DNA of 45,931 nucleotides from Deltaproteobacteria bacterium (lineage in GTDB: Bacteria > Desulfobacterota > Dissulfuribacteria > Dissulfuribacterales > JALVPX01): contig JALVVK010000058.1 of NCBI GenBank assembly GCA_027023445.1, positions 1-45,931 of the forward strand, in the 5' to 3' direction. The notes below the pieces were generated by a model that was not told the DNA's origin, did no database searches, and saw only the letters and a program-made list of their open reading frames with translations. Shown one piece after another: positions 3,268-16,699 of the stretch. The stretch's first letter is position 1; each line of letters starts with the position of its first letter. The position numbers and the translations under genes are program-made.

Positions 3268-3452
3268 ATTTCCCCTGCGGTGTTGGTGTTTCGGTCAGGT
3301 AGTTCGTTGAGCCAACAGCCTGTACTAGGGAGTCTCCTCTCTGCATATGGTGGAAGATGAGAACAGCATCATCCCGGATATGCGGATGAGACGCCCACCT
3401 GAGTTTCTCAGGTTCAACAAACCCTGCCGACACGGCACATGCGGGGGAATTT
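3268..3452 (+). ncRNA. ssrS: 6S RNA
   Basis: 6S RNA mimics an open promoter and sequesters housekeeping RNA polymerase in stationary phase. The evidence is position (23 bp after zapA), length (about 185 nt) and fold. The ends pair as a long terminal stem, from TTCCCCTGCG near 3270 to TGCGGGGGAA ending near 3449. The 3-prime half contains CAGGTTCAAC, AACCCTGCCG and ACACGGCA, which resembles the GGTTCAAGGGTT and GCCTGCGGCGGCAT stretch of the E. coli RNA. No coding frame covers it. The exact ends are estimates. Confidence 0.85.
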
Positions 3453-14920: not shown

Positions 14921-15018
14921 GGAAGCGGAAAGGGCACTGGTGGCCCTCCCGGACTTCAAATCCGGTGCACGGGGTGAGGAGCCTCGTGGGTGGGTTCGAT
15001 TCCCATGCGCTTCCGCCA
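14921..15018 (+). tRNA. selC: Selenocysteine tRNA (anticodon TCA)
   Basis: 98-nt tRNA that carries serine, converted to selenocysteine, to in-frame UGA codons with SelB. The 5-prime GGAAGCG pairs with CGCTTCC before G and an encoded CCA (15016-15018). The D stem is AGGGC/GCCCT. The anticodon arm is CCGGA-CTTCAAA-TCCGG with anticodon TCA at 14956-14958. The long variable arm CACGGGG/CCTCGTG has seven pairs, and the T arm is GTGGG-TTCGATT-CCCAT. The eighth acceptor pair typical of bacterial tRNA-Sec is a G-G mismatch in my alignment. No selA, selB or obvious selenoprotein is in the window. Confidence 0.97.
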
Positions 15019-15430
15019 TTTCGCTATGATTAGCGCTGCGCTTGGATTACCGCTCGTCCCGCCGAGACGGGACATCGCTCTGATTACTATACCCTGTCCG
15101 GGGCTCGCCTGGTTTGTATCACACAGGGCCGGGAGGGGCAGGAGGCTCTATTTTCGGACCTGGCTCAAGGCTATTCCCTTTTTTCTCTCCGCAGGCATTC
15201 TTCCCGCAATTTTTCTGCGGGCGACGCCTCATTTGTTGCCCCGGGGGCTAAGAGCCAGGCTCCTCAAACAGAACCCCCTGTCCCTTCCTCACAATCCCCC
15301 AGGCTGAATTTATGGAAATGTTGAATGGCGAATTGTGAATGTTGAATGAAAGAAAGGCATTTCGTTCCTTGTTTCCTGTCGACAGGCAGGTTCTTTGCAG
15401 GGTACAAATCGCCTGCAGCATTTGAGAGGT
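15019..15430. other. Gene-free stretch downstream of selC
   Basis: There is no supported gene in these 412 bp. It holds several small inverted repeats: CGCTA/TAGCG at 15022, GTCCCG/CGGGAC near 15057, CCCGCA/TGCGGG near 15203, and the 12-bp palindrome CCTGTCGACAGG at 15376. It also contains TTGAATG-type direct repeats around 15310-15350. None has a terminator T-run. The stretch after the inverted-repeat element (15623-15858) shows only a related ATTCACCATTTATCATTCAA run and nothing else I can name. Confidence 0.5.
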
Positions 15431-15622
15431 TTGGCGCGCCGGGTGGCCCGGGAGGGCGGCGGAAGCGGAAAAGGCTCGACTGACGTAGCTGAACAGCCCC
15501 GTAAGGGTTCGGGGCATGACGCCCCGAACCGGCAATCAGGCCATGGACGGCCTGTTTGCCGGGCCAGCGGAGTCTGTCGAAAGCCTGAGCGTGCAGCCCT
15601 CCCGGGCCACCCGGCGCGCCAA
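15431..15622. repeat. 192-bp element bounded by a perfect 27-bp inverted repeat
   Basis: The arms are 15431-15457 and 15596-15622; they match exactly in reverse complement and are very GC-rich (TTGGCGCGCC at the outer edge). Inside are a 10-bp hairpin GGTTCGGGGC/GCCCCGAACC (15506-15530) and a nested hairpin CCGGCA..CAGGCC/GGCCTG..TGCCGG (about 15529-15562). Just inside the left arm, 15459-15475 repeats the selC 5-prime end with one mismatch. No clear target-site duplication or coding frame was seen. It could be a small non-autonomous mobile element or a structured RNA gene. Confidence 0.75.
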
Positions 15623-15858
15623 GCCAACCGCGCCCGTGAGTATGAACCATGAGCTATTTCAAAGGGGTGGTTCCGTGTTAGTGCCCCTGAAGAGCATGTG
15701 TGGCCCCTGCCTTTTGCAATTCACCATTTATCATTCAATATTTTCATGCTCAGGGATGCGGAGCACCATTTAGCATGTGAAAGTTTGAGCAAGGGCGACG
15801 GAATAGATTGTGGCTTGATATAGGTTTATTGCATGGGTGGTGTTCAGGGCCTGAAATG

Positions 15859-15889
15859 AAATGCCGGGGGTAATATCCCCCCGGCATTT
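15859..15889 (-). terminator. Hairpin terminator of the PEP-CTERM gene
   Basis: AAATGCCGGGGG (15859-15870) pairs with CCCCCGGCATTT (ending 15889). It lies 21 bp past the stop on the minus strand and runs into a T-rich TTTCATTTC. The very stable GC stem and T-rich flank fit an intrinsic terminator. Confidence 0.75.
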
Positions 15890-15910
15890 GAGCCCTAACC
15901 GCGTTTGTTC

Positions 15911-16699
15911 TTATGACTGGCGGCGTCTTTTGCCCCAGCCCGCAAGGCCGACAAGTCCCACTCCCATGAGCATTATGCTGGCAGGTTCCGGAACAGGCTG
16001 CATGGATTCTGTACGTACAACGATTTCGTCAAAGTCAAAGGGGGTTGTGTCGTTCGCCTCCGCGGCGATGTACCAGTGCTGAGGGGTATCCTGGTAGGAG
16101 GAGGTTCCAAGGGAAACCGTGTCCCCCAAGATGCCCTGGTAAGTCAGGAAATAGTCCAGGCCGTTGGGGTTTTTGTCGCTCTGGCTGAAGTAATACGTGC
16201 CGCCCACGTTGAGGTAAAAGCCAAAGGCAGGCATGTAATCAGCGGTGTCGATCTCTGTGTTGTAGGGAATGCCCAGTTTGAATGATATAAAGGTACCATT
16301 CCCATCATCATAAACGAATTTCAGGTCCCCCGTTACTGAGTAAGCGCTGTTGAAAAGCGTCAGCAGGTCGTTATCTCCAAGACTGTTGAGATCTGCATTG
16401 ATGTTATACAGCCCGAATTCAACTGCGGATGTGCCTGAATAGTCGTAATGCATGAGCCATGCGCTGCTTCCCGGCCCTGTAACCTGAAATATTTCTGCTC
16501 CCCGTTCATCCGTATAGGGATTGATACTTGATCCTATAGAGGAAAATACTGTCGCAAGACTGTCCAGTTGGCCTGGGGCCGCATCTGTCACAGGATTAAA
16601 CGGGGTCGCGTTGCCAGGGGAGTACCAGGCGAATAACGCCAGGAGCAGGTTTGCCACAATTACCACAATCAGTTTTCTTTTCTCCATCTGTTTCTGCAT
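15911..16699 (-). CDS. PEP-CTERM sorted secreted protein
   Basis: Secreted protein of 262 residues with an N-terminal signal peptide (basic start, then LIVVIVANLLLALFAWYSPGNA). The C-terminal exosortase signal has VPEP at 236-239, a hydrophobic helix (IMLMGVGLVGLAGW) and KRRR at the end. PEP-CTERM proteins are processed by exosortase at the inner membrane and are associated with exopolysaccharide. The body is Asn/Asp/Tyr-rich, and DFDEIVVRTES before the signal is reminiscent of DUF4114-like proteins; its role is otherwise unrecognised. AGGAGGG lies just before the ATG. A sigma-54 promoter lies upstream and a terminator downstream, so it is a single-gene unit. No exosortase is in the window. 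Confidence 0.9.
   Translation of the reverse strand: MQKQMEKRKLIVVIVANLLLALFAWYSPGNATPFNPVTDAAPGQLDSLATVFSSIGSSINPYTDERGAEIFQVTGPGSSAWLMHYDYSGTSAVEFGLYNINADLNSLGDNDLLTLFNSAYSVTGDLKFVYDDGNGTFISFKLGIPYNTEIDTADYMPAFGFYLNVGGTYYFSQSDKNPNGLDYFLTYQGILGDTVSLGTSSYQDTPQHWYIAAEANDTTPFDFDEIVVRTESMQPVPEPASIMLMGVGLVGLAGWGKRRRQS

Follow-up and report, generated by a model that had tools for sequence, protein, structure and literature searches.

A covarying, multi-copy inverted-repeat element downstream of selC resembles the TwoAYGGAY RNA motif and is predicted to bind CsrA

The window analysed here is a stretch of 45,931 nucleotides (contig JALVVK010000058.1) from a deltaproteobacterium of the order Dissulfuribacterales (assembly GCA_027023445.1). 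At curated cut-offs, Rfam named only a 6S RNA gene at 3269–3451 (RF00013, 78.8 bits) and tRNA-Sec in the whole window. The latter gene, selC (14921–15018), is the only tRNA gene in its region and is followed by a convergent PEP-CTERM gene at 15911–16699. The interval between them, called a gene-free island in an earlier note on this DNA, indeed contains no gene from 15019 to 15910. Within it, an inverted-repeat element begins about 410 bp after selC, inside the 500 bp given in that note, with its 3' side pointing at the convergent PEP-CTERM gene. In G001, the sole genome of the same family with a readable selC locus, a different gene follows selC and no element was found in the available ~700 bp. 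A link with selenocysteine, considered for a 16/17 match between the element and the 5' end of selC, was rejected, the match (E = 1.8) being attributed to chance.

The interval also holds other repeats. Directly after selC (15020–15087) lies one unit of a short-hairpin array known from contig C118 (L092, 480–690), in which short, differing hairpins have GGTAATCC between them. An intergenic repeat of ~190 bp, present in more than 30 copies in the genome (loci L012–L038; window 15311–15351 and 15713–15790), is built from heptamers of the AATGTTA / ATTCACC type, which make up a long AT-rich hairpin; a conserved hairpin, TTTCATGCT..GGTGCGAAGCACC..AGCATGAAA, comes after it. In the second match of L028, the stem heptamers of this repeat are swapped for the unrelated, mutually complementary gctcat / atgagc. 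The window element sits between the two halves of one such heptamer repeat.

The features of the element and its upstream flank are as follows.

15353..15427, + strand: upstream flank, also present at the truncated C84 copy (78% over 148 nt, including the first part of the element)
15428..15625, + strand: whole element, two adjacent hairpins enclosed by a long outer stem that has purine-rich internal loops; full relatives on contigs C101 and C29
15428..15460, + strand: 5' arm of the outer stem (15431–15457 perfect); two-sided compensatory changes relative to C101 and C29
15506..15530, + strand: core hairpin 1, loop AUGAC at 15516–15520; covarying pairs
15531..15560, + strand: core hairpin 2, loop AUGGAC at 15543–15548; covarying pairs
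15593..15625, + strand: 3' arm of the outer stem (15596–15622 perfect); complementary to the 5' arm

The arms at 15431–15457 and 15596–15622 are perfect reverse complements over 27 bp, as first reported, and lengthen to 33 nt (15428–15460 and 15593–15625, 94%) when two imperfect pairs are included. This is the longest perfect inverted repeat with arms within 250 bp anywhere in the window. Since the longest perfect repeat found over the same range in 50 second-order Markov simulations of the window was 14, the description of the match as far beyond chance is borne out. The element strand has a folding energy of -155 kcal/mol, with z = -12.7 relative to dinucleotide shuffles, and the two strong internal hairpins noted previously are real and correspond to core hairpins 1 and 2.

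A nucleotide search of the genome revealed two further copies, one on C101 (90%) and a truncated one on C84. A covariance model (R1) built from the window and C101 copies then detected one more full copy, on C29 (113.9 bits), which had been missed by BLAST; the genome contains the window copy, two more full copies and one truncated copy. Exact-pattern scans of the genome contigs and a distant BLAST search against plasmids and phages gave no match, and a 17-mer scan of viral contigs, which picked out 41 of them, gave none longer than 25 nt. The C101 copy has perfectly complementary arms of 33 nt that are unlike those of the window in sequence, 11 pairs being changed on both sides, and its fold is as strong as that of the window copy (z = -12.6). 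When the three full copies are compared, compensatory changes on both sides are seen at 26 of 65 pairs, and pairing is kept in 99.5% of cells, a level reached in 0/500 shuffles and approached by no slid register. The sequence of the outer stem differs among copies while the arms stay complementary. The copy on C101 lies 22 bp beyond the stop codon of the upstream gene, that on C29 just upstream of the RNase P RNA gene, and that on C84 upstream of trpE. Homology between the C84 copy and the window covers 148 nt, starting at 15353 and reaching into the element, and breaks off ahead of the core. This copy (L003/L011, C84:15003–15150) has lost the core, yet has a new outer stem made from other flank sequence, GGTCTGGAGG/CCTCCAGACC.

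R1 also gave matches in three other genomes of the order (G006, G014 and G004), the common core being the two adjacent hairpins. A nucleotide search of 40 relatives gave no match; such relatives were found by covariance models only. A core model (R2), trained on other genomes only with the own copies left out, recovers all three full copies of the genome under study. In the R2 cores across relatives, 13 of 20 pairs are compensated and 97.8% are paired, and covariation in the short internal hairpins extends over different families within the order. R2-positive genomes account for 13 of the 46 in the order, with 1 to 14 copies each; at the phylum level, under strict filters and with 19 candidates scored per genome, matches occurred solely inside the order (6/297 genomes). 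The earlier note had proposed searching for further copies and testing the fold and covariation, naming a single-copy, non-conserved element with no transcript and no empty-site polymorphism as the adverse outcome; the searches instead gave several copies, conserved in relatives. In genus g11 and on contig C17 of G006 (L158–L167), the outer end of the element is followed on the 3' side by a second conserved hairpin, TTTTCTTTGGTTC.TTTCTTTTG..CAAAAGAAA.GAAC.

In a permissive Rfam scan, the window core (15507–15562) matched the TwoAYGGAY motif (RF01731) with 35.4 bits (E 4e-4), below the curated gathering cut-off of 43 bits. Copies from relatives, including those of G006, scored 31–39 bits (31.3–38.7), also below this cut-off, while G010, another genome of the order, scored 44.3. 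One G004 copy (L106) matched RsmW (37.1 bits), a member of the same Rfam clan as RF01731 (CL00106). Matches to sR40, DUF3268 and miRNA families in the permissive scan were taken as chance.

The window element has the TwoAYGGAY layout, in which two hairpins are directly joined within an outer stem, but does not have AYGGAY in both terminal loops. Hairpin 2 carries AUGGAC, the sole ANGGA in the window copy; the hairpin 1 loop, which is AYGGAY or AGGAC in relatives, is AUGAC in the window and lacks one G of GGA. The C101 and C29 copies and most relatives have GGA in two loops, and nearly all distinct cores from relatives keep it in both, mostly as AUGGAU/C, while their stems vary, a count biased by the training of R2 on such loops, although the own-genome copies were outside the training set. 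Because the window copy falls short of both the cut-off and the loop motif, we do not file it as a member of RF01731; to judge from sequence, it is a putative divergent, multi-copy structured RNA of the TwoAYGGAY type.

A role as a CsrA-binding sRNA has been put forward for TwoAYGGAY (PMC4333381), and CsrA preferentially targets ANGGA in hairpin loops (PMC7366521). For delta-proteobacterial CsrA, sponges have been predicted only, with none confirmed (PMC11934962). The genome studied here encodes CsrA (73 aa, C12:12652), the gene being located between flgL-like (flagellar) and fliW-like ORFs, as the neighbours were named from their sequences. Of the 46 genomes of the order, 32 have a csrA gene, among them all 13 that bear the element (hypergeometric 0.003, ignoring kinship); the other 19 have csrA with no element detected. 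In genus g19, the element is present solely in the csrA-bearing member. The association is suggestive but not decisive, because the genomes are related.

The family is most likely one of predicted CsrA-binding elements, and we think it probable, as the best explanation, that the window element is a CsrA-capturing RNA of TwoAYGGAY type, divergent and present in several copies. The long outer stem, free to vary provided that it stays complementary, would present two side-by-side hairpins whose ANGGA/GGA loops may be spaced so as to hold one CsrA dimer; the RNA, transcribed alone or within a 3' UTR, would sequester CsrA. Transcription, CsrA binding and the sponge role are inferred from the features described above. 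In the window copy, GGA/ANGGA is exposed in one hairpin loop, and a crude scan revealed neither a sigma-70-like promoter nor a terminator-like site at its end. With an intact loop in hairpin 2 and a damaged one in hairpin 1, which lacks GGA, this copy may therefore be weak or partly decayed. FliW is the other known CsrA antagonist, and since csrA adjoins a fliW-like gene, a sponge is not required. The perfect arms could alternatively be maintained by DNA-level correction between the repeat arms.

Copies in relatives are also found in close pairs. Among 11 pairs with copies within 4 kb, 9 face outward, 2 are in tandem and none face inward (p ~1e-4 under random orientation). At locus A, G035 and G023 have in common both flanking genes and an inverted pair, which is ~97–98% identical within each genome, and the cargo is an Mrr-type nuclease in G035 and two unknown proteins in G023 and G021. 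In G011, G033 and G037, the flanking genes are adjacent, with neither element nor cargo (filled loci L158, L159, L161 and L160; empty sites L172–L174). On contig C59 of G023, a pair encloses a type IIG restriction enzyme (restriction-methyltransferase). A narrow literature search found no description of outward pairs around exchangeable restriction genes.

These arrangements, together with the patchy multi-copy distribution, raise the possibility that the elements form the structured termini of gene cassettes that can move. An outward pair would then bound cargo inserted and exchanged between convergent genes, the hairpins being recognised by a recombinase or transposase or merely providing homology for exchange, and single copies such as that of the window would be solo remnants. 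However, none of the own-genome copies was seen as a pair in the flanks examined, some close pairs enclose no cargo, no transposase or recombinase was present among the ORFs scanned between pairs, and no target duplication could be shown. Conserved loops combined with free stems are also more in keeping with an RNA-binding protein than with a DNA end, and we regard this explanation as possible but unlikely. The position of the C101 copy and the orientation of the window copy fit one half of the outward-pair arrangement. The RNAs may travel as cassette edges, or may instead accumulate where convergent genes end, at places that receive cassettes as well. That a CsrA-type RNA family doubles as a cassette boundary, its outward pairs marking spots between convergent core genes at which defence and other genes are exchanged, is a speculative proposal to which we attach a rather low probability; if it is true, cassette turnover would be tied to a global regulator that binds RNA.

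A MITE-type or other palindromic DNA repeat without RNA function, in which hairpin replication errors copy one arm onto the other, would account for terminal inverted repeats of this length in several intergenic copies with no coding frame, and for the truncated C84 copy having a different outer stem of its own. Such repeats should, however, have the same ends in several copies, and here the extent of the flanks and the outer-stem sequence differ, the homology of the window to C101 and C84 continuing 7 to 78 nt past the stem. No flanking direct repeat indicative of target-site duplication was found at the window, C101 or C84 copy. The arms differ between copies yet remain complementary, the short internal hairpins covary too, and the loops are conserved while the stems change. 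Since there are neither target duplications nor sharp ends, a simple MITE is unlikely, and the broader palindromic-repeat explanation is judged improbable. Among the three readings offered in the earlier note, the structured RNA is the best supported, by compensatory helix changes and by the sub-threshold match to a known motif; the MITE-like one fails in its simple form, although the idea of mobility survives in the inverted pairs around exchangeable cargo in relatives, and a recombination site was not demonstrated. Sites of the attC type have R' and R'' boxes (GTTRRRY/RYYYAAC), neither of which was seen by eye at the element ends, and this candidate was rejected. A strong bidirectional terminator of transcription, or an insulator, placed where convergent genes end, with the loops incidental, would agree with the many copies just beyond the 3' ends of convergent genes (such as that on C101) but is very improbable, given that no T-run follows the window stem, that the C29 and C84 copies are upstream of genes and that the GGA loops are left unexplained.

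Compared with known systems, the elements share with MITEs and other bacterial palindromic repeats the intergenic location, inverted-repeat ends and several copies, and differ from them in having no target duplication or fixed ends and in arms that vary between copies but remain complementary. CsrA RNA sponges are established in Gammaproteobacteria, and the occurrence in csrA-bearing genomes of a covarying family whose stems differ while its GGA loops stay fixed makes the prediction of a CsrA sponge testable outside that class. Like the CsrB/CsrC and RsmX/Y/Z/W sRNAs, the elements have GGA in hairpin loops as putative bait for CsrA, and L106 matches RsmW itself; in contrast to these sRNAs, which have five or more sites, they have two core sites and occur as dispersed copies, that of the window having no recognisable promoter or terminator. 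The closest likeness is to TwoAYGGAY (RF01731), with which they share a pair of neighbouring hairpins whose loops are of A(Y)GGA(Y) type, set in a poorly conserved outer stem, the strand, core order and spacing all agreeing, whereas the window element has a score below the cut-off, a hairpin 1 without GGA and a very long, perfect outer stem. TwoAYGGAY was described from gut metagenomes, Gammaproteobacteria and Clostridiales (PMC2864571); the elements reported here belong to another lineage and reach up to 14 copies per genome.
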